Below, piece by piece: positions 2,290-25,656 of a stretch of 25,656 bases of DNA. The DNA is from a virus: positions 1 to 25,656 of the IMG/VR virus record IMGVR_UViG_3300021600_000024. One strand, 5' to 3'. Below the pieces are notes generated by a model. The model was not told where the DNA came from. It saw only the letters and a list, made by a program, of their open reading frames with translations, and searched no databases. A program made the position numbers and the translations under genes. The number at the start of each line of letters is the position of its first letter. Position 1 is the stretch's first letter.

Positions 2290-4323
2290 CTATCCGTTAG
2301 CGAATGTTGCACCTCTATTAGCCCTTCTATCTAATTGTTGTTGATTAGATATATCTGAACTAACTACATATGCTCGCGTAGGTTGAGAGGTTGAACTTTG
2401 TATTGTTTGTGATATTTGAGTTGCTGGATTTGCACCACCACTCGTATTAATTGTTGGCATACTTGCACTCGCACCACCACCACCATAAGCCGGCATAGAT
2501 GCTGAACCTCCACCACCTCCACCACTTGCACTCACACCCGGAACTTGAACTGAATTAATATCTTGTATTGCTTTTACACCACTCGCTATAGCTGCTGCTA
2601 CACCCAATGCTCCCGCTACTGTATTGATTACCACCCACGGCATACCGAATGTTAATGGTGATGCGGCAATTGCTTTCGCATTTGCTATCTGAGTATTAAC
2701 AATGATACTACCAATTGCTGCTGCTTTTTCAATTGCTATACCCGCTATTGCTATAGCTTTATTCTTTCCTGCTAATTGACCTAATGAATTACCGATTGAA
2801 CCAATCACATTCAATCTGTCCAATACAATTTGTTTTTCAGCAATAAATGCTTTTAACTTAATATCTTTTAGATTTTGTTCATGCTCAATATTGATTGCTT
2901 CTATTTGTGCTGCATTTCCTTTTGCTTGCTCAATTTTAATTTTATATGCATCATTCTCAATTGCTAAAGAATTTGTTAAGTATGCTTGAGTTCCTTCTGT
3001 TAGAGTTTTTTGTTGAGCAGTTAATAATAATAATTCATCTGAGTATTGTTGTATTCTAGCATCTCTTTCTATTTTAGTTAAATCATTATTGTAAGTTATT
3101 AATAATGCTTTTCTTAATTCTGCTTTTGAACTTTCAGATTCTTTAATAAATTCTTTATCTGCTTCTAAATCACTTAAATCTTTATCATATTTAGCTTTTC
3201 TTACATCTTTAGATTTTTGTATTTCATCTGTTGCAGTTTGTGCTAATATTTCTCTTTTCTTATCTGCGAAATCTTTTTGTGCCTTTATACTATCTTCTAA
3301 TAATTTCTTTTGATTTTCTGCAAATCCTGTTAACTTACTTTGATAATCTGCATCATTTGCAATCTTTTCTGCTAATAATGTTTTTTCTTCTGCACTACCT
3401 TTCTTTTCAAGTTTAAGTCTTTTATCTATCTCAGCATTCTTTAACTCATATGATTTTTTAGCAAATGCCATTTCTACATCTAACTTTTCTTGCTCTGTTG
3501 TTGCTAATGCTAAAGCTGATTGTTTCATCTTTTCCAACATTGCTTCATCATACTTATCTTGTGCCTCTAATCTCTTAAGTAATAATTCCCTACTTTTATT
3601 ATCTGCTTCCTTCTCTCTCTTAGTTTTCTTAGCATATCCTTTATCAAATCTTTCTTCTGTTGCTTCGTATGCTTGTACTGTTTTACCCCACGAACCTGAA
3701 AGTTGTGAATATCCTTCTTTTATTTTATCTAAATCTAAAGTGAATATACCTTTAAGAATTTTACCAACACCTGTTCCTGCTTCTTTAACTAAAGTAAAAA
3801 ATGCAACTAATGAAGAATATAATATTTTAATACCTTGTGTAATGTATGGTAGTGCTGATATAGCTAATTCTATAAATGCATCTAATAAAGGCTGTATTGC
3901 TTCAAATATACCACCTAAGATTTTTTCCATTGCAATGAACAAAGGTTCTAACTTTTTCATTGAACCTTCTGTTTCACTAAATGCCGCAACTAATCCACCA
4001 ATTAATGCAACTATTAAACCAATACCTGTTGCTTTAAGTGCTGAACCGAATGATACCGTTGATTGTTTAAGAGTATTTAATCCTTTACCTAATGCACCGA
4101 TAGGACCACCTGCGCCTTCTAATGAATCAATCCAATCAGCAGATGCTTTCTTTGTTCCTTTAATTTTATCTTCTAAATCATCAATTTGATTATATAGTTT
4201 TTTGAAATCATCAGAACCTGCTGCAGTTTGTTTTAATTGCTTCTTAAGTTCTTTAAGTTGCGCAATAGAACCTTCTACCTTATTGGTATTGACATCAATA
4301 TCTATTTCGACTTTCTTAGCCAT
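2290..4323 (-). CDS. Tail tape measure protein
   Basis: A 677-residue protein. Residues 1-60 have 'VEGSIAQLKELKKQLKQTAA', a coiled coil typical of tape measures. Residues about 90-120 (FGSALKATGIGLIVALIGGL) are a hydrophobic helix able to span a membrane, and 140-170 is another hydrophobic segment. Residues about 220-480 are Lys/Glu/Ala-rich coiled coil ('KREKEADNKSRELLLKRLEA'). Residues about 500-590 are again hydrophobic with many Ala/Ile/Gly. The C-terminus is Gly/Ser-rich and flexible. At 0.15 nm per residue a tail of about 100 nm is expected. It sets tail length and enters the host on infection. No peptidase or lysozyme motif is visible. Confidence 0.85.
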   Translation of the reverse strand: MAKKVEIDIDVNTNKVEGSIAQLKELKKQLKQTAAGSDDFKKLYNQIDDLEDKIKGTKKASADWIDSLEGAGGPIGALGKGLNTLKQSTVSFGSALKATGIGLIVALIGGLVAAFSETEGSMKKLEPLFIAMEKILGGIFEAIQPLLDAFIELAISALPYITQGIKILYSSLVAFFTLVKEAGTGVGKILKGIFTLDLDKIKEGYSQLSGSWGKTVQAYEATEERFDKGYAKKTKREKEADNKSRELLLKRLEAQDKYDEAMLEKMKQSALALATTEQEKLDVEMAFAKKSYELKNAEIDKRLKLEKKGSAEEKTLLAEKIANDADYQSKLTGFAENQKKLLEDSIKAQKDFADKKREILAQTATDEIQKSKDVRKAKYDKDLSDLEADKEFIKESESSKAELRKALLITYNNDLTKIERDARIQQYSDELLLLTAQQKTLTEGTQAYLTNSLAIENDAYKIKIEQAKGNAAQIEAINIEHEQNLKDIKLKAFIAEKQIVLDRLNVIGSIGNSLGQLAGKNKAIAIAGIAIEKAAAIGSIIVNTQIANAKAIAASPLTFGMPWVVINTVAGALGVAAAIASGVKAIQDINSVQVPGVSASGGGGGGSASMPAYGGGGASASMPTINTSGGANPATQISQTIQSSTSQPTRAYVVSSDISNQQQLDRRANRGATFANG

Positions 4324-6345: not shown

Positions 6346-9153
6346 TTATACTGCACAAATACTAGCACAATTCGTTCCATGTGGTAATGTAGGGTCTAAT
6401 ATAATTGCAACTTGCGGTGTAGTTGTTCCAGTAATTTTGTATAAGTACCCGTCTAAACTAATATCATTATAATAATGAGTAGAAATATATGAATACCCAG
6501 TAGGGAATGCAACCGCTACATCAGTATTTCTTATAGTTGAACAAGGTGGCTCATTACAATTATACTCATTTGCTAAGTAAAAATCATAAGTAGGCCCAGC
6601 CGTAGTTGTAGTTGTTGTTGTAGTTGTTGTTGGTGTACATGTTTCACAATCACCATAATTACTTCCAAATGTTGCATCATCATCTAATCCAGTATTTGTT
6701 GTTGAAAGAACTACCCAACAATTTATACCATTCATAGTTCCTAAGAATGTAGGTGCGTATACTTTATATACTCCACCAACAACAGGAGTTACATCAGTTG
6801 CATTCATTATATAAGTTGAACCACCACTACACAATTGTATTTCATAATAAGTATTAGGAGGTAATGTAGTTGTAGTTGTAGTTGTTGTTGGTGCTGCAGT
6901 AGTTGTCGTAGTAGTAGGTGCTGCAGTTGTAGTAGTTGTAGTACAATTATTACCAAGTAATACCATCGTACTTACTGTTCCTGAAGTTACTAAAACATAT
7001 CTTCCACCATTTGGTTGTGCTGTAAATGTTCTAGCAGTACCACCGGCATCAGTTACTAATGTTGTTACTCCACCGGCAGCTGCCGGTGCACTAGCATATG
7101 TTGTATTATTCATATAGAATGTACCATTACCACCCGCTAATGTATTAATTGTAAGTGTTTGAGTTAAACCAGTACATGTCGCAACCGTACTATAAGTTAT
7201 TGGAGGTAATGTTGTTGTCGTTGTCGTTGTAGTAGTAGTTGTTGGTGTTGCAGTAGTTGTCGTAGTAGTTGGTGCTGCTGTTGTTGTTGTAGTAGTCGTT
7301 GTTGCTGGACAAGTTTGACAACCAGCACTAATTAATGTTGCAGTATTTTGACCAACTGTATGTGATACTCTTAAAGTTTGACCACCAAAACTTAACCAAT
7401 AATTTCCTGTTGCTGTATAATACCATGTATCTCCTGTGAATATTGTTGAATTACAGAATGTAGAACTATTACCTAACATTATAAATTGTACAGGACAACT
7501 ATAACACGCTGATTGTTGGTCACCACCTTCATTACTTATACATACCGAATCATTGAACGGAGCTGCGGTTGTAGTAGTTGTAGTAGTTGTCGTAGTTGTA
7601 GGTGCTGCAGTTGTAGTAGTTGTTGTTGTACTTGTCGTTGTTGTTGTCGGGCATAAAACACCACTACAAATTTCACTTCCTATTCCATTTAAATGAGTTA
7701 CTAAATATGCACCTGCTGCAATAATATCCAATACTTCAAAAATATATCCACTTATAGGGTCTAAATAAAATCCACTATTAGAAGGTAATTCAGTTGTATT
7801 ACTAATATCAATAAATTCTACAAATTCACATCCACTAGGACCACATGCATATCTTACTGCATTATAAGAAAAATTAGGTAATACAGTTGTAGTTGTAGTA
7901 GTAGTTGGTGCTATCGTAGTAGTTGTACTAGTCGTTGTTGTAGGCGCAATAGTTGTAGTAGTAGTTGTACTAGTAGTTGTAGTTGGTGCAATAGTTGTCG
8001 TAGTAGTAGTTGGTGCTATTGTTGTTGTAGTAGTTGTAGTTGGTGCTATTGTTGTAGTAGTTGTAGTTGTAGGTAATGTAGTAGTTGTAGTAGTAGGTGC
8101 AATCGTTGTTGTAGATGTTGTAGAGGTAGTACTCGTTGTACTTGTCGTTGATGTTGTACTTGTCGTTGATGTCGTACTTGTAGTAGATGTTGTTGTAGTT
8201 GTTCCAGGAGTACCACAAGATGCACAATAAACAAAAAGTCTAGCTGCCGAAGTATTTCCTAACCAATTAAATGTAGGTGTACTTTGTGCACATATGCTCC
8301 ATACTGAACTTCCATCAAAGGATTGTGTTACAGCTGTTGCTGTTGTACAATCAATATATGATGCAGTTGCTGCGATTCCCCATGAAGGTCCAAAGCTATA
8401 CGCTACATAATTTAAACATATTCCTGGTTGTGCAGTAGGAACTCTATCTCTACCACAGCTTCCACATTGTCCTAAACCATATGTTTCACTATTAGGGTCT
8501 GAAATTGTAAATAATAATGGTGAAATACTCGATGTTTCATATTGTACATTTACACAATGCACACCACTACTTCCTGTCCAATTATTACTTCCTACTGTTT
8601 GTCCTGCGGATAAAGTTCCATAAATAGCAGGCATTTCAACAACACCTATTATACTTCCAGTTTCTGGTGTACAACAACTATTTACTGCGTAATATCTACT
8701 AGCTGGTGCTGCGGTTGTAGTTGATGTCGTTGTAGATGTAGTAGATGTAGTTGTTGGTGCTAACGTTGTTGTAGTTGTTGTCGTTGGCACTAACGTAGTA
8801 GTTGTAGTTGTTGGTGCTAACGTAGTTGTTGTCGTTGTTGGTGCTAACGTTGTTGTAGTTGTTGTCGTTGGCACTAACGTAGTTGTTGTCGTTGTTGGTG
8901 CTAACGTTGTTGTAGTTGTTGGTGTTGGTGCTATAATATAATGTATTACTTCATTTGTACATACCCCTTTGCTTTTTAATTTAATACATTGAGTATCTTC
9001 AGGAACATTAAGAGATACACTTTGACCTAAATAAGTTAAAGTAACATCCATAGATGCGGTAAACGCAACACAATCAGGCGAATAATAGACAGTATAGTTT
9101 GGCCCTGAACTAATTCCCTGGTCTGTTAATGTTATTGTTGTTACTAAACTCAT
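6346..9153 (-). CDS. Modular tail protein: seven Cys-rich modules on mucin-like Thr linkers
   Basis: A 935-residue protein. Residues 1-75 form an N-terminal beta domain ('SLVTTITLTDQGISSGPNYT' to 'NVPEDTQCIKLKSKGVCTNE'), probably the virion anchor. Then threonine linkers (about residues 76-149, 316-425, 502-531, 616-649, 736-764 and 839-852; units such as APTTTTTT, LVPTTTT and TSTTST) alternate with about seven modules of 65-85 residues. The modules start with a strand and a Cys ('RYYAVNSCC', 'YYEIQLCSGG', 'DFYLANEYNC') and often end in CxxC ('GQCGSCG', 'YCASCG', 'GDCETC', 'GCQTC'). Thr/Pro/Ala composition resembles mucin O-glycosylation regions. The layout suggests a long, flexible adhesin-like fibre. 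The two glycosyltransferase-like genes follow directly. Binding targets are unknown. Confidence 0.85.
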   Translation of the reverse strand: MSLVTTITLTDQGISSGPNYTVYYSPDCVAFTASMDVTLTYLGQSVSLNVPEDTQCIKLKSKGVCTNEVIHYIIAPTPTTTTTLAPTTTTTTLVPTTTTTTTLAPTTTTTTLAPTTTTTTLVPTTTTTTTLAPTTTSTTSTTTSTTTAAPASRYYAVNSCCTPETGSIIGVVEMPAIYGTLSAGQTVGSNNWTGSSGVHCVNVQYETSSISPLLFTISDPNSETYGLGQCGSCGRDRVPTAQPGICLNYVAYSFGPSWGIAATASYIDCTTATAVTQSFDGSSVWSICAQSTPTFNWLGNTSAARLFVYCASCGTPGTTTTTSTTSTTSTTSTTSTTSTTSTTSTTSTTTIAPTTTTTTLPTTTTTTTIAPTTTTTTTIAPTTTTTTIAPTTTTSTTTTTTIAPTTTTSTTTTIAPTTTTTTTVLPNFSYNAVRYACGPSGCEFVEFIDISNTTELPSNSGFYLDPISGYIFEVLDIIAAGAYLVTHLNGIGSEICSGVLCPTTTTTSTTTTTTTAAPTTTTTTTTTTTAAPFNDSVCISNEGGDQQSACYSCPVQFIMLGNSSTFCNSTIFTGDTWYYTATGNYWLSFGGQTLRVSHTVGQNTATLISAGCQTCPATTTTTTTTAAPTTTTTTATPTTTTTTTTTTTLPPITYSTVATCTGLTQTLTINTLAGGNGTFYMNNTTYASAPAAAGGVTTLVTDAGGTARTFTAQPNGGRYVLVTSGTVSTMVLLGNNCTTTTTTAAPTTTTTTAAPTTTTTTTTLPPNTYYEIQLCSGGSTYIMNATDVTPVVGGVYKVYAPTFLGTMNGINCWVVLSTTNTGLDDDATFGSNYGDCETCTPTTTTTTTTTTAGPTYDFYLANEYNCNEPPCSTIRNTDVAVAFPTGYSYISTHYYNDISLDGYLYKITGTTTPQVAIILDPTLPHGTNCASICAV
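6600..7649 (-). repeat. Thr linkers 3 to 6 interleaved with Cys-rich modules
   Basis: Four shorter linkers lie at about 7561-7649, 7207-7305, 6864-6943 and 6600-6638, each 13-34 codons, with Ala-Ala-Pro, Thr-Ala-Thr-Pro or Leu-Pro-Pro breaks. They separate modules 3 to 7 of the 935-aa protein. Linker length falls toward the C-terminus. Confidence 0.8.
7885..8203 (-). repeat. Thr/Pro linker 2 with 18-nt tandem units
   Basis: About 106 codons, the longest linker. The first part is (Thr-Ser-Thr)n built from 18-nt tandem units near 8130-8195. The rest is T5-7 separated by Ile-Ala-Pro or Leu-Pro. Alternating Thr codons suggest selection for the protein sequence, not only slippage. Confidence 0.85.
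8707..8928 (-). repeat. Thr/Pro linker 1 with higher-order DNA repeats
   Basis: About 74 codons of (L/V)(A/V)P-T6-7 units. At DNA level a 47-bp segment at 8753-8799 recurs exactly at 8837-8883 (offset 84), and its first part recurs again near 8894. Such copies point to recent duplication inside the linker. Confidence 0.85.
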
Positions 9154-9178: not shown

Positions 9179-10531
9179 TTATAGTGGTGGAACATCCGGA
9201 CAAGTATTATATCCACTCGTATTAATATTTGTAAAATAATCAGGACTTGCAGCAGTTAAACTTATTACATTAACAACCGGTCCCGATAATTCATTGGTAG
9301 CGTAAAATTTACCTATAACTAATCCCATACTATTTAATATTATTACTGTATCAATATTATTACATTCTACATCGTATATATCTACAACATAATTTGTTGG
9401 TGCAGAAGTAGTTGTAGTTGTAGTAGTTCCTGCTGTTGTAGTAGTTGTAGTTGCTGGTGTATTTGAACATGCTGCCAAACAACTATTAAACGGAACATTT
9501 GATAAAATAGTACCTGTATATATTGGAACTACACTTACTAACTCATATGACCATAATGATATTGCGCCAGGTTCTCTATAAAATTTACCAATTACTCCAG
9601 CTCCATTCATTCTAACATATGTATCAAATGCGAAATTACAACTTCCATCACAAACATATGCGTGAGCGAAATAAAAATGGTCTGGTGGTCCTTCTGTTGT
9701 TGTTGTCGTTGTTGTTGGTGCTATTGTTGTTGTAGTACTTGTTGTAGAAGTAGTAGTTGTAGTTGTAGTTGTAGGAGCTCCACAATCTTCACAATTATTA
9801 TATACATTATAAAGAATACTTCCAGTTAAATCTAATGATGCAGTTGATGCTGCAAGTGTATAACAGCCCTCTAATTCACCAGGTGTACCCCATCTTACAA
9901 CTTGTCCAACACTTAATGATGCGGTTGTATCAAATGTTACACCATAATATGTTATTGAATCATCACATTTAGTTACATTCCATTTTGGTATAGCAGTTAC
10001 AATAAAATCAAATTTACAAGCTTCACCAGGTAAAATATATGCTAAGGTATCAGCAATAATTGGTCCTAATAATTGTAAAGTACATTCACCATTACTTAAA
10101 TTATAATTGTTAATTGCTCTTAAATGATAATAGTTACCTCTCCATTCAACAATATCATTAAGGTTTAATTTAAAATAATTTGCTAATGGAATAATTGCTG
10201 AACAATTAATTAATCTAGTTTTAGGATTATATAAAAGGTTTACATAAGTAGACCAATATTCTGAATATAAACTATTAATTGGAGTTTCACCATAAACACT
10301 TTGTTCATTATTAAATAAAAGAGATTTAGAATTTACAGTTGGTAAATTTCCTAAGTAATTATCAAAATATGGAAATGATGTTTGTGGATATGCATCACCA
10401 TAATTATCCTGAATATAAAATGTATCAGTTTCTAATAAACCATTGTAAAAGAATACTCTAGGTAATACTCTTGCGGGTTTGTAATCAATTGAACTGATAT
10501 AAGTTGGTATGTATATTTTTTGTTTAGCCAT
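9179..10531 (-). CDS. Tail structural protein with Cys-rich modules and Thr linkers
   Basis: A 450-residue protein started at the ATG at 10531 (MAKQKIYIPTYISSIDYKPA), whose A is the last base of the upstream TAA; the longer frame to 10558 only adds upstream coding overlap. Residues about 60-160, with 'SLYSEYWSTYVNLLYNPKTR', 'LINCSAIIPLANYFKLNLND' and 'YHLRAINNYNLSNGECTLQL', are the C-terminal domain of the large tail family whose first part is the upstream gene. Then come three Cys-rich modules of 65-95 residues (ending in ILYNVYNNCEDCG, NVPFNSCLAACS and a C-terminal SGYNTCPDV), with threonine linkers around 9695-9773 and 9397-9456. The modules suggest exposed binding domains on stalks. Confidence 0.8.
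   Translation of the reverse strand: MAKQKIYIPTYISSIDYKPARVLPRVFFYNGLLETDTFYIQDNYGDAYPQTSFPYFDNYLGNLPTVNSKSLLFNNEQSVYGETPINSLYSEYWSTYVNLLYNPKTRLINCSAIIPLANYFKLNLNDIVEWRGNYYHLRAINNYNLSNGECTLQLLGPIIADTLAYILPGEACKFDFIVTAIPKWNVTKCDDSITYYGVTFDTTASLSVGQVVRWGTPGELEGCYTLAASTASLDLTGSILYNVYNNCEDCGAPTTTTTTTTSTTSTTTTIAPTTTTTTTEGPPDHFYFAHAYVCDGSCNFAFDTYVRMNGAGVIGKFYREPGAISLWSYELVSVVPIYTGTILSNVPFNSCLAACSNTPATTTTTTAGTTTTTTTSAPTNYVVDIYDVECNNIDTVIILNSMGLVIGKFYATNELSGPVVNVISLTAASPDYFTNINTSGYNTCPDVPPL
9397..9456 (-). repeat. Thr-rich linker B in the 450-aa tail protein
   Basis: About 20 codons, two Thr runs divided by Ala-Gly, between the second and third Cys-rich modules. Confidence 0.8.
9695..9773 (-). repeat. 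Thr-rich linker A in the 450-aa tail protein
   Basis: About 26 codons, nearly all Thr with a few Ser and one Ile-Ala-Pro break. ACA, ACT, ACG and other codons alternate, so it is not a pure trinucleotide run. It joins two Cys-rich modules. Confidence 0.85.
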
Positions 10532-12570
10532 TAGTAGCACCCTCCAAAGTCTGCACAATTATCACCGGTATCAAATTGAACTATACCTGTTAATGTATCT
10601 ATAGCCCAAATATTACATTGAGTACCAAATGGTGCACCTGCATTATTTACGATAGAACTATATCCAACTACTAAATTAATTCCATATGCATCAAAGTATA
10701 ATACTGCACCTGCTTCTATTGCGCCAGTTGATGAGAATATTTCAAAGAATGTTCCATATGCACAAATATTATAAGGATTACCCGTATTTGATAATTGACA
10801 ATTTCCAATAGAGAATGCAATTGGTCCACCACCACTTTGACTTCCACTTACACCCGTACCTTCTAAATAAATTAATGGAGAACTTGCCAATGTAGTTTTA
10901 ACTGTGAAATCTCCTTGTGAAAAGAAATTCTCAGTATCTACATAATATGCTTTACCAAATTCTCTTGCTGCACCTTTAGAAAATTGTTGTGAAATATAAT
11001 CACCATCTAAAGTATCACCAAAGTTTAAGTTTTGAACTGCTAAGTTATTTGCTGGAATTACTTCAATATTACTATTTAAGTTTATGTATTGATTAAAATC
11101 TACAATATTTCCTTGCTTATACCATTCATTAAATGGCTCTACGATAAAATCGCTTAACTTATTTTTATTTTGTTGTATTACTAAATTGAATTTCTTTTGA
11201 ATACCTGCTACAAAATCAATTAATTTAATACCTGATGTTCCGAATGGCATATTAGATGCAATATCCATTATTAATCCCCCACCACCTTGATTTACTTTAG
11301 TTACACTTAAATAAGATTTTGGTTGATTATCAGGATCTAAAACAACTCTAAAATTGCTACCACCCTGATTTGTATATTGTAAATAAAATGAATAAATTCC
11401 TGCAGGTAATAATTCGGAATTCCATTGAGTTAGTAATTCAAAAGATTGTGTTCTAGTTTGTGTTGCATTATATGTTTGAATTTTATCCATATATTCATTT
11501 ATCTGATACAATGGAGATGTAGAAACAATTGTGCCACCATTTTTAATAATTAAATCAAAATGTGGAATACCATTACCTACTGATAAGTTTTGTATTTCAA
11601 AGTTTAAATTAAGTTCACCTCTTATTTTACTATCAAATGATATTGTATAATTTAAATTAGCATCTAAGTTACCACCTGGATTTTGTAGAATATTATACCA
11701 AGGTAATAATATTGGAGTTGCTGCACTCATTGTTACATTTGTTTCACCACTCCCACTAACAGGTCCTATTTTAAATAATCCGTATGTTTCTAAATCAATA
11801 CCATTACCACCACTCGATCCCGATGCGAATATTGGATATCTTAATTTATTATTACAAACTAAGTAAACATTATTTAACCATCCTTGTTCCCAAAATGCTG
11901 ATGTATATGTAAATCCAAATTCTTCAAATATTGCATCCCATACTGCTTTCAATCGAATTGCCGGTTTAAAATCTTCAACTGCCATGGCACCTTCAGGAGA
12001 ATCAATTCCGAAATGAGTTTCTTCTGGTGAAAAAGTTATTTGTTGACCATATTCAGCTAAAGGATATACAATACTACCTGAGAACAAATTGCCACTCCAA
12101 GACGAAGTTATATTTGATAATGAAGCAGTATGATTGTATTGAGCCAATGAGCTCGTTAAATCGGTTAAAAAGTGTCTTTTAAGGTCTCTACCAAAACTTG
12201 CTAATCCACCATAAACTGTTACTTCATATGAATCAATAAATTTATTTGCTAATACATTTACTTTATTTAATTGTAAGTAACCAGCAGATAAATAAATTCC
12301 ATCAAAATCTAAATAACACGGAACTTTTTGATTTGTAGAAAATGTATAAGGGTTTTCAACAGAAATATCATAAACAAATTCAAAGAAATGATTATTCTTT
12401 TTAGTACCAGGTAGGGTAATAGCTTGAGTAAAATCAGATGGTAATACACCCAAATCAAATAGACCTGTGATGTTATTACTAACTTTAATTTCCTCATCTT
12501 TAAATAGGTCTAAGATTTCGCCATCGGCTACTAACTTAAACTTAAAGCCTTGTACTGATGTTACACCCAT
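10531..12570 (-). CDS. Large tail structural protein, N-terminal part of a split family
   Basis: A 679-residue protein. The start (GFKFKLVADGEILDLFKDEE, then 'FDLGVLPSDFTQAITLPGTK', 'NNHFFEFVYDISVENPYTFS' and 'YLSAGYLQLNKVNVLANKFI') matches a tail protein family frequent in Bacteroidota phages that I recall as a single long chain. The N-terminal about 580 residues are beta-rich. The last about 95 residues (from 'IAFSIGNCQLSNTGNPYNIC' to 'DTGDNCADFGGCY') form a Cys-rich module like those of the next two tail genes. The stop overlaps the next ATG (TAATG), and the following gene begins with what is normally the C-terminal part of this family, so the two ORFs look like one protein split at an inserted module. 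Confidence 0.8.
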   Translation of the reverse strand: MGVTSVQGFKFKLVADGEILDLFKDEEIKVSNNITGLFDLGVLPSDFTQAITLPGTKKNNHFFEFVYDISVENPYTFSTNQKVPCYLDFDGIYLSAGYLQLNKVNVLANKFIDSYEVTVYGGLASFGRDLKRHFLTDLTSSLAQYNHTASLSNITSSWSGNLFSGSIVYPLAEYGQQITFSPEETHFGIDSPEGAMAVEDFKPAIRLKAVWDAIFEEFGFTYTSAFWEQGWLNNVYLVCNNKLRYPIFASGSSGGNGIDLETYGLFKIGPVSGSGETNVTMSAATPILLPWYNILQNPGGNLDANLNYTISFDSKIRGELNLNFEIQNLSVGNGIPHFDLIIKNGGTIVSTSPLYQINEYMDKIQTYNATQTRTQSFELLTQWNSELLPAGIYSFYLQYTNQGGSNFRVVLDPDNQPKSYLSVTKVNQGGGGLIMDIASNMPFGTSGIKLIDFVAGIQKKFNLVIQQNKNKLSDFIVEPFNEWYKQGNIVDFNQYINLNSNIEVIPANNLAVQNLNFGDTLDGDYISQQFSKGAAREFGKAYYVDTENFFSQGDFTVKTTLASSPLIYLEGTGVSGSQSGGGPIAFSIGNCQLSNTGNPYNICAYGTFFEIFSSTGAIEAGAVLYFDAYGINLVVGYSSIVNNAGAPFGTQCNIWAIDTLTGIVQFDTGDNCADFGGCY

Positions 12571-14191: not shown

Positions 14192-14773
14192 TTAAGGTGC
14201 TGCTGTTGTTGTAGTTGTGCTTGCCGGCGGACAAGTTGTAGTTATTGTAGAATTAAATGGATATAAATTATATAAACATCTCGGTCTATCGTTATGAGTT
14301 GTTAGTGTAAACGTACACACCCAACCTGCTAATCCATTATTAAATCTATCTGCAAAAGGCTCATTAGTTATTGTATCTAATATCTGAAAACTTTCTAAAC
14401 TATATTGTGTGTATGAAACTAAATCATTTATTATACCCAATGTGTTAGCGTGAATATCTACTGTATCATCAACATCAAAGAAAGGAACTTGCATTGTATT
14501 CTCTCTCGGTGCTGATTCGTTATTCTTATTCTTAATTTTATCTGCTACTATTAATTGTATTTCATATTCAGTTGTACTCAATCCAAAATTAGCACCTAAT
14601 ATACTTACATTACCCAATGGATAAAATTGAAATTGATTATCATCTATATGTGGTATATCACCTTGCGACACACTATCGATAGATGGATGATTAATCATAA
14701 TAGTTTTGAAGTAATCTAATATACTATAATAAAGTGTATAATTGACACCGGCGTTATTCTGTAAATAGCTCAT
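14192..14773 (-). CDS. Neck / tail-completion-like protein with an orphan Thr tail
   Basis: A 193-residue protein. The core (residues about 10-165) has 'YYSILDYFKTIMINHPSIDS', 'VSQGDIPHIDDNQFQFYPLG', 'TTEYEIQLIVADKIKNKNNE' and 'NTLGIINDLVSYTQYSLESF', a pattern of strand-helix pairs I have seen in neck or tail-terminator genes between connector and tail genes. The last residues, CPPASTTTTTAAP, form a short threonine linker of the same type as in the large tail proteins, but the protein stops right after it with no module beyond. That may be a recombination remnant or a docking tail. Which neck protein it is remains open. Confidence 0.7.
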   Translation of the reverse strand: MSYLQNNAGVNYTLYYSILDYFKTIMINHPSIDSVSQGDIPHIDDNQFQFYPLGNVSILGANFGLSTTEYEIQLIVADKIKNKNNESAPRENTMQVPFFDVDDTVDIHANTLGIINDLVSYTQYSLESFQILDTITNEPFADRFNNGLAGWVCTFTLTTHNDRPRCLYNLYPFNSTITTTCPPASTTTTTAAP

Positions 14774-23807: not shown

Positions 23808-24580
23808 TTATTTACTTGCAGCCATTACCGCATCGTGCATCATCTTTTCTAATGTGCCTTTATCTGCTTTATAAGATAGTAATAGTAAACATTTTTCCAA
23901 TGGCTCTTTTACTACTTCATCTATTTTTGTGATGTCCCCATTGGCGAGTTCAACAATAGTTGCATAAGACTTCCATTTTTTGCTAAAATTGTATTGAAGA
24001 TTTGAGGCACTTCCTCCTTCACCATTTCCATCGAATAACTCAGGGTAGAAGCTAGTAAGTCCATTGACAAATTTACAAAAAAAAACAAAGAACCGAAGTG
24101 TATATCCATTGAAACATTTAAAAACATATCATCATCTATCTTACCATCATATGATTTAACTGAATAGTATGATGTGTTTGTTTTCTCAATAGGACGATAG
24201 AGTATAGACATTATCTTTGCCCAATTATCATCTATCTGAATTGTATCGTATTTACTTATATCTGCATATGCACCATAACTCATTTTAGATAAGTTCGGTT
24301 CAAATCCATACTCAATACCATTAACGTTTATTTTTCTTTGTAATGGCATTTCAGTTATATTCATAAACTTTGCTAAATCATTCTTAAGAACATTGTATGA
24401 TTCTCTACTAATATTATTTAGTAAGCCTGGTTCAATACCACATAATTTATATAATAAGATTGCAGTTTGTGCTTCCTCATCATCTTTATAGTTTTCCAAC
24501 TCTTTACTCAAATCTAAGTATTGTCTTAAACTGATATCTGCCCAACTTTCAGGCATTGATATTTCTATACTATGCTTCAT
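23808..24580 (-). CDS. Putative -1 frameshift product of the chaperone-like gene
   Basis: If the ribosome slips back one base on the T run at 24077-24085, translation leaves the short frame at 24077 and stays open for 89 more codons to a TAA at 23808-23810, giving about 257 residues. I translated this frame by hand. It continues FCKFVNGLTSFYPELFDG, holds FSKKWKSYATIVELANGDIT, then a helical KIDEVVKEPLEKCLLLLSYK, and ends MMHDAVMAASK. It has balanced, protein-like composition and no stop. Its only ATG codons are two near the very end, so it cannot easily be a separate gene. It overlaps the short frame for 51 codons. A homopolymer sequencing error that split a single gene is the main alternative, but then the readable end of the short frame would be chance. 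Confidence 0.7.
23921..24580 (-). CDS. Tail-assembly-chaperone-like protein, unshifted (short) product
   Basis: A 219-residue protein of a type common in uncultured phages, with an N-terminal 'MPESWADISLRQYLDLSKE' segment, a central 'YGFEPNLSKMSYGAYADI' segment, then 'IMSILYRPIEK' and a hydrophobic 'HFGSLFFFVNL' segment near residue 165. I have seen these segments together in phage proteins but cannot name a Pfam family. The gene holds a run of nine T at codons 166-168. Ribosomes that do not slip there make this form, which ends in 51 residues of helical character. Ribosomes that slip -1 make the longer form listed separately. A short and a long product sharing an N-terminus is the hallmark of tail assembly chaperones (lambda gpG/gpGT). 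Its position after the terminase, about 20 kb from the tape measure, is unusual for that role. Confidence 0.85.
   Translation of the reverse strand: MKHSIEISMPESWADISLRQYLDLSKELENYKDDEEAQTAILLYKLCGIEPGLLNNISRESYNVLKNDLAKFMNITEMPLQRKINVNGIEYGFEPNLSKMSYGAYADISKYDTIQIDDNWAKIMSILYRPIEKTNTSYYSVKSYDGKIDDDMFLNVSMDIHFGSLFFFVNLSMDLLASTLSYSMEMVKEEVPQIFNTILAKNGSLMQLLLNSPMGTSQK
24077..24085 (-). other. T9 slippery sequence (candidate -1 frameshift site)
   Basis: On the coding strand the codons read TTG TTT TTT TTT GTA, so a perfect U-UUU-UUU heptamer occupies 24077-24083. After -1 slippage the next codon is TGT at 24077-24075 and the long alternate frame follows. I saw no strong stem-loop just downstream, which is not required in all phage examples. 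Confidence 0.7.
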
Positions 24581-24773
24581 ATCTATTTATTTCGTTTTTA
24601 TAATTAATCATCCCAATTAGTTTTCTTACTTTTGCTTCTTCGTTATCCAACTTTGCTGACATTGCTATTACGTTGGCTCTCATTGTTTCGTTTGCCTGTA
24701 ATAGTTCTCTACACAAATCAAAGACCTGTGCTACTTCTGTTATTGAATAATCTTTTCCATCAATCTGTATCAT
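24570..24773 (-). CDS. Small helical protein, unknown function
   Basis: A 67-residue protein without Cys pairs or a signal peptide apart from one internal Cys (FDLCRELL). After a short beta-like start (IQIDGKDYSITEV) it reads as one long amphipathic helix from about residue 15 to 62, with heptad-like Leu/Val/Met spacing, so a coiled coil is likely. It overlaps both neighbours: 4 nt with the zinc-ribbon gene upstream and 11 nt with the chaperone-like gene downstream. This tight packing supports it as a real gene. No function can be named. Confidence 0.75.
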   Translation of the reverse strand: MIQIDGKDYSITEVAQVFDLCRELLQANETMRANVIAMSAKLDNEEAKVRKLIGMINYKNEINRYEA

Positions 24774-25166: not shown

Positions 25167-25656
25167 TTATCTGATACTAATTGAATACTTTCCTGCATTT
25201 ATTTTCTTTGCGTTTAATCTTTCCATACATACATACCTTATCGCATCTATACTATGGTTTGAATAATCAACAGGTATATTCTCAAAGTTACCATTCTTAT
25301 CTACCATCCATACATACTCACTAAATTCTTGTATTGTATTTGTAGACCTCTTTGTAACATTTAATTTATATTGTTGCATTAAATCTATTCCCATTCTAAT
25401 ACTATCTTTACCTTTCTTAACCGGCTTAATATTAAATCCACTACGATATATTTCCTCAATCAATCTACCCTCTGCACTATCTGCCCATATCTCATTACGA
25501 CCTATATCTAATTGGGTTAAGTGTTTTATTATATCTGCTGTTACTAATCCTTTCTTATACAACAACTCATCAATGTATAAATCTTTATCCCTCTTAGAAA
25601 TGCAAACTAATGTAGATGGGTCAATACTAAATCCAAAATCCATACCGAATGCAATA
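25167..25656 (-). CDS. terL: Terminase large subunit, C-terminal nuclease part (cut by window edge)
   Basis: This is the end of the DNA-packaging motor protein, whose C-terminal RNase H-like nuclease cuts concatemeric phage DNA at the portal. The frame stays open past the internal ATG at 25643 to the window edge (Ile-Ala-Phe-Gly before Met-Asp-Phe-Gly), so the N-terminal ATPase lies outside. Three acidic sites fit the metal-binding residues of terminase nuclease domains: the Asp in MDFGFSIDP, the Asp/Glu in WADSAEGRLIEE about 55 residues later, and the Asp in NHSIDAIRYVC near the end. The spacing and the 'DFGF..DPS' opening match PBSX/T4-type terminases. It is the first gene of the run. The next gene starts 10 nt after its stop. 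The family is assigned by motif reading only. Confidence 0.9.
   Translation of the reverse strand, partial: IAFGMDFGFSIDPSTLVCISKRDKDLYIDELLYKKGLVTADIIKHLTQLDIGRNEIWADSAEGRLIEEIYRSGFNIKPVKKGKDSIRMGIDLMQQYKLNVTKRSTNTIQEFSEYVWMVDKNGNFENIPVDYSNHSIDAIRYVCMERLNAKKINAGKYSISIR

Follow-up and report, generated by a model that had tools for sequence, protein, structure and literature searches.

Conservation supports programmed -1 recoding in a probable tail assembly chaperone gene beside the terminase of uncultured phages

Results

Genes and features of the locus

The window, that is, the whole stretch of 25,656 nucleotides of viral DNA that was analysed (IMG/VR record IMGVR_UViG_3300021600_000024), carries on its minus strand a chaperone-candidate gene flanked by a 67 aa ORF that follows the terminase and by a 94 aa ORF. 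According to the ORF list and the translation, this gene begins with an ATG at 24580, a start that is supported by relatives aligning from residue 1, and ends with a stop codon at 23923-23921. The features considered here are:

25167..25655, minus strand: terminase large subunit, C-terminal part (PF17288, E 1.9e-19; conserved upstream neighbour)
24570..24773, minus strand: 67 aa ORF directly upstream, a neighbour conserved in many relatives (ORF list, gene-order comparison)
23921..24580 including stop, minus strand: zero-frame product of 219 aa, composed of a 168 aa shared domain and a 51 aa zero-frame tail (ORF list, translation)
24077..24085, minus strand: T9 run, conserved as T9 or T10, the last seven bases of which (24083-24077) form the heptamer U_UUU_UUU
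23808..24077, minus strand: -1 frame extension, 89 codons from TGT at 24077-24075 plus TAA, readable only after a slip
23924..24076, minus strand: two-frame overlap of the 51-codon zero-frame tail with the -1 extension (zero-frame openness, synonymous conservation)
2290..4323, minus strand: tape-measure-like protein of 677 aa (phrog_3336 tape measure, E 0.0034; phrog_32985, E 7e-8)

The 677 aa protein is called tape-measure-like as its matches to phrog_3336 and phrog_32985 are weak. The T9 run is the longest run of A or T in the window, the runner-up having a length of 8, and it is read as TTG TTT TTT TTT GTA, which places U_UUU_UUU in frame. Verification of the register TTT TTT TTT is in agreement with an earlier note on this DNA, and both codon counts given there hold, namely 89 codons in the -1 frame, closed by a TAA at 23810-23808, and 51 open zero-frame codons on the same DNA. 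Also, the claim that the -1 frame offers no usable internal start was borne out, with the first TTG at codon 59 and the first ATG at codon 78 of that frame; the 17 -1-frame codons located 5' of the slip in the window are devoid of start codons.

Conservation of the T run and of the -1 relation

When the fusion was employed as a query in IMG/VR, 80 relatives were obtained, and a profile search led to at least 80 places, some of which were already in the first set. Among the matches listed, the run was T9 or T10 in all of the 108 distinct relatives, T8 or T11 was found in none of these 108, and the -1 relation was preserved in 106, the two exceptions being L067, which ends at a contig edge, and L076, which has a second lesion downstream. 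The T run occurs in three codon registers among the relatives, indicating that the run has shifted or varied in length with the -1 relation being preserved. As a case against recoding, the earlier note had named homologues with 8 or 10 T and one continuous frame; the T10 relatives still need the -1 shift because the codon register shifts with run length (L066, the one exception in register, requires the shift as well), and the relatives with a continuous frame are remote and lack a T run of 7 or more at this place. The -1 extension is 48-76% identical to relatives over its full length. After grouping of relatives into 62 clusters below 85% protein identity, conservation over these clusters supports the programmed -1 frameshift with two C-termini that had been proposed, and the suggested alignment of homologues revealed that the T run and both frames are kept, the zero frame being open as well. 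A pattern search in GTDB genomes revealed no related locus.

If the frame break were due to a sequencing or assembly error, or to a phase-variable run, the true gene would be continuous. Homopolymers are prone to error, remote relatives of the gene are continuous and gp10 of phage 6H looks broken when compared to 23T (see below), but the -1 relation, preserved in 106 of the 108 relatives, comes from many samples, with the metagenome contigs being consensus assemblies, and from GenBank isolates, and selection keeps the zero frame open (see below). Given this conservation and the lack of T8 or T11, sequencing error and phase variation were ruled out, and we consider such an explanation extremely improbable. 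A -1 ORF translated from its own start as a separate gene would require no recoding, and the annotators of phage P12024L did call gp41 from an internal ATG. However, no start precedes codon 59 in the window, an ATG within the first 30 -1 codons is found in just 14 of the 62 clusters, and the conservation of T9/T10 would lack a reason; with no usable start, a separate downstream gene was ruled out and is given very little probability.

The only cultured relatives found were the Nonlabens phages P12024S and P12024L and, as judged from P12024 and other flavophage relatives, the host of the uncultured phage would be a member of the Bacteroidota, probably of the Flavobacteriia. As in the window, the homologous gene of P12024S/L (gp40-gp41) is located immediately after the terminase, and gp40 carries T9 and a -1 extension, whereas identity to the window amounts to about 28%, the zero-frame tail has 25 codons and the run lies in another codon register. 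In contrast to a single recoded gene, the P12024S/L record presents two hypothetical proteins, gp40 and gp41, in line with the claim that the extension is overlooked by gene calling. Gene callers produce two false genes in the cultured phages and overlook the extension in a large environmental phage group (at least 600 stretches in one search). A more distant search with P12024L in viral contigs returned just itself and one 95% relative. P12024L gp40 and gp41 look like one annotation-split frameshifted gene (L082 23946-24640, NC_018272.1), and PHROGs 32199 and 38404, matched by the two parts, probably mirror the gp40/gp41 split of P12024L.

The zero frame is kept open over the -1 extension

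The zero frame is open for 48 codons, compared to 6.6 expected from a synonymous redraw of the -1 codons (62 clusters, median P 0.001, with P values that treat clusters as independent and thus overstate certainty). In the same synonymous resampling of the 62 clusters, the third frame showed no excess openness. Judged by this resampling, the zero frame is actively kept open beyond chance over the stretch that the earlier note described as 51-codon dual coding. Also, synonymous conservation is raised in the overlap, including codons that are unable to make a zero-frame stop (P 0.03). The zero-frame tail displays a recurrent pattern (DLL..TL.S...ELP.NIKSILE.SG), part of which is a shadow of the -1 frame; the zero-frame residues themselves may, on modest evidence, be under selection. 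In P12024L the tail comprises just 25 codons and therefore a long zero-frame tail is not universal. The long overlap makes a clear case of a second frame that is actively maintained.

Relatives with one continuous frame

Most of the proteins returned by a fold search with the predicted N part (pLDDT 85) were phage proteins without characterisation. In Foldseek, the N part also matched a Caudovirales contig protein annotated as 'tail assembly chaperone' (E 3.8e-3), and a protein of Flavobacterium phage 6H was found with E 9.3e-5, its 191 aa being the length of gp10. In 23T, laban6-1, Ingeline_1, Leef_1 and a Microcystis phage, 6H gp10 has relatives that are each encoded by one ORF, with lengths of 259-301 aa. 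This continuous set consists of Flavobacterium 23T gp10, laban6-1 gp17, Cellulophaga Ingeline_1 gp05 and Polaribacter Leef_1 gp02, together with the Microcystis phage protein (PHROG 25418). Unlike the gene of the window, the continuous relatives possess one unbroken frame of 259-301 aa and lack a slip run at the junction, where no T run of 7 or more was encountered in any of them.

Comparison of an eight-fusion profile with the profile of the continuous relatives by hhalign gave an alignment of 214 columns across the junction (E 6.3e-11). Against the same profile, the N part alone reached E 1.2e-7, and the C part alone was not significant (E 0.13), yet it was collinear and in the right place. 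As the fusion is aligned through the junction, it corresponds to the full-length protein, which the wider family produces in two ways. With frameshifted and continuous forms in one family, it becomes possible to trace how a programmed shift was gained or lost. Phage 6H was considered as a further frameshift case and rejected, since 23T is continuous and slippage at a slippery site does not account for the frames of 6H. The 6H gp10 gene (L251 10044-10927) is broken relative to 23T and the others, and a mutation or a sequencing error is likely.

Assignment as a tail assembly chaperone

PHROG 166 'tail protein' matches the N-terminal domain of 13 of 24 members (best E 2.5e-7) and, over the same stretch, P2 gpE itself (E 4e-7). 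The Pfam family Phage_TAC_7 (PF10109), which includes P2 gpE and Mu gp41, matches 10 of the 24 members, all below the curated cut-off of 25 bits (best E 0.001), with best scores of 19.5 bits for a scanned protein and 22.2 in the record scan, compared to 47.2 for P2 gpE. When 28 IMG/VR records, window included, were scanned with Phage_TAC_7, 17 matched, 16 at the chaperone-candidate gene, with two copies on one of these contigs, and one (G024) elsewhere, and below-cut-off matches were also obtained in several control genomes. The window copy was matched neither by PHROG 166 nor by Phage_TAC_7, and the latter did not match P12024L. Searches of the PDB by fold and by sequence and a single-sequence hhalign comparison with P2 gpE gave no match, and an NCBIfam scan gave chance matches only. 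At the level of sequence families, PHROG 166 and Phage_TAC_7 provide moderate evidence for a P2 gpE-type chaperone. The idea of a tail chaperone, as put forward in the earlier note, thus gains from PHROG 166 and weakly from Phage_TAC_7, but not from the window copy. On the contig of L108 (G007, 62622 bases), two Phage_TAC_7 places with equal open frames lie about 33 kb apart; this contig may be a dimer assembly.

The gene order is conserved and consists of the terminase, often a small ORF, the chaperone-candidate gene, g94, fibre-like genes, g240, capsid and portal. The earlier note's distance of about 20 kb to the tape-measure-like gene stands for the window contig, but contigs are permuted and in L109 that gene precedes the chaperone-candidate gene by about 9.4 kb, on the same strand. 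For P12024L the distance from gp40 amounts to about 7 kb, provided that gp50 is its tape measure. In the window, L109 and P12024L alike, the chaperone-candidate gene is not directly upstream of the tape measure, a position that is usual for a chaperone and not strictly defining. Since the order of the structural genes is unusual throughout, this distance argues weakly against a chaperone role. A further point against the chaperone reading is the length of the zero-frame tail, as 51 codons are many for the short form of a chaperone.

The recoding might be real and yet concern a different protein of virion morphogenesis, such as a neck or tail completion factor, as the gene adjoins the terminase far from the tape measure and the matches of the window copy to chaperone models are weak at the family level. 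We regard this as unlikely in view of the PHROG 166 and P2 gpE link and of the continuous relative of Cellulophaga Ingeline_1, which is found three genes ahead of the tape measure. The gene is most likely a P2 gpE-type tail assembly chaperone placed beside the terminase and not beside the tape measure, and we have good though not full confidence that it encodes a tail assembly chaperone with programmed -1 recoding.

For such a chaperone, standard decoding would yield the short form of 219 aa, and a fraction slipping by -1 on U9 would yield a fusion of 257 aa, the 168 aa domain being common to both. If the two forms act as in lambda gpG/gpGT and P2 gpE/E+E', coating of the tape measure protein would fall to the shared domain and recruitment of tail tube subunits to the -1 domain, and the slip rate would set the ratio of short form to fusion. 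We infer the production of both forms, the identity of the major form and a function as chaperone.

Slippage by the ribosome or by RNA polymerase

An in-frame heptamer of the X_XXY_YYZ type (U_UUU_UUU or U_UUU_UUN) is present in all registers seen. An upstream SD-like sequence (AGGAG/GGAGG) was found in none of the 62 clusters and no downstream structure was detected (folding z +0.35); stimulators of -1 frameshifting are frequent and not obligatory. In all 62 clusters, a G or C stands 5' of the T run (24086 in the window, minus strand). Also, the leucine codon before an in-register run is TTG, CTG or CTC in all 42 clusters concerned, whereas TTA, CTA and CTT make up 86% of the leucine codons elsewhere in the same genes. 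Base and codon bias point to the nucleic acid being selected for more than the heptamer. Elsewhere in the coding DNA of these phages, T runs from 5 bases up are scarcer than in synonymous shuffles, and since avoidance sets in already at 5 bases, it marks no clear slippage threshold.

A survey of other long T runs revealed a T10 in a gene of several relatives that is labelled tail-terminator-like from its position and appearance. In five relatives this gene and the chaperone site are on the same contig (T10 at 18013 in L098, 10665 in L100, 16230 in L107, 11586 in L122 and 10321 in L146); the window homologue (14192-14773) has no T10 run. A DNA pattern scan for the T10 gene returned 71 distinct sequences, nearly all from the tail-terminator-like gene, and a protein search blind to the run found 64 distinct relatives, 61 with exactly T10 and three with no run and a short end. 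The run follows CTT or ATT and reads TTT TTT TTR. The zero-frame extension of the T10 gene reaches about 117-129 codons (2 of 61 run off the contig), the -1 frame meets a stop after 2-6 codons and the +1 frame immediately. A slip at T10 would remove a domain of about 115 aa, leaving the short form, which other relatives encode as such. Of 90 loci, counted with overlapping contigs, 69 carry a single T10 copy, 11 a run-free copy and 10 a tandem pair in which a short copy without run is followed by a T10 copy. That short and long forms sometimes come from two gene copies suggests that both are needed, and as the T10 codons could vary freely, the run is under selection. No paper describing this T10 site was found in the open-access literature.

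The T10 extension was considered as a domain repeat of the window fibre proteins and rejected (best domain E 0.015, filters off, 21 proteins). Long Thr-rich linkers (TTTTT..AAP) are located between Cys-containing segments of tail-region proteins of the window (6346-9153, 9179-10558 and 14192-14773), and the terminator-like gene of L093 has a Thr-rich tail of 290 residues in place of T10.

At the chaperone-candidate gene, RNA polymerase could add or drop U on T9/T10, and one extra U would lead to the fusion by ordinary translation. Such transcriptional slippage fits the run of 9 or 10 in 108 of 108 relatives in three registers, though a 7-base heptamer would suffice, and the expected A/T homopolymer of about 9 or more. 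The absence of an SD-like sequence and of downstream structure, and the G/C base and leucine codons before the run, are in agreement with it as well. In the second gene, the exact T10 in 61 of 61 and the prompt stops in the other frames are as in Thermus dnaX (PMC1088944), and in bacteria slippage has been documented for runs of 9 T (PMC1088944, PMC5009743). However, the in-frame heptamer is also present at every site, and conserved Phe codons together with the heptamer explain much of the run length in the main gene. Also, the tail chaperone shifts described in the literature consulted are ribosomal and, for this reason, ribosomal slippage is slightly preferred, with slippage of RNA polymerase being a plausible, less probable mechanism. 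It is conceivable, if rather doubtful, that one length-tuned T homopolymer device, acting through RNA polymerase slippage, serves in two tail genes, adding a domain in the chaperone and removing one in the tail-terminator-like protein; two protein ratios would then be set by the same kind of event. The fixed T9-T10 length and the second T10 gene make the question of ribosome versus RNA polymerase directly testable for phage tail genes, with existing isolates as a starting point.

Comparison with known recoding systems

In Thermus dnaX and in IS elements, transcriptional slippage takes place on 9 A/T (PMC1088944). They share with the window a homopolymer limited in length to 9-10 and two C-termini, whereas the genes are unrelated and slippage on the window mRNA is putative. 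In lambda gpG/gpGT and other chaperones of long-tailed phages, one gene leads to a short form and, by a -1 shift, to a fusion (PMC5009743). The slippery site, position and overlap length of lambda gpG/gpGT all differ from those of the window, and the likeness noted is one of gene layout. Like the window gene, P2 gpE/E+E' combines a -1 shift at a T-run heptamer, which reads T_TTT_TTG in P2, with a common N-terminus and two C-termini; P2 gpE has 91 aa and a fusion frame of 142 codons, compared to 168 plus 89 aa in the window. Unlike P2, the window family has a T9/T10 run, a gene by the terminase, a zero-frame overlap of about 50 codons and Pfam scores below cut-off. In summary, the arrangement is of a known type and resembles that of tail-building chaperones, but it is found in an unusual place.
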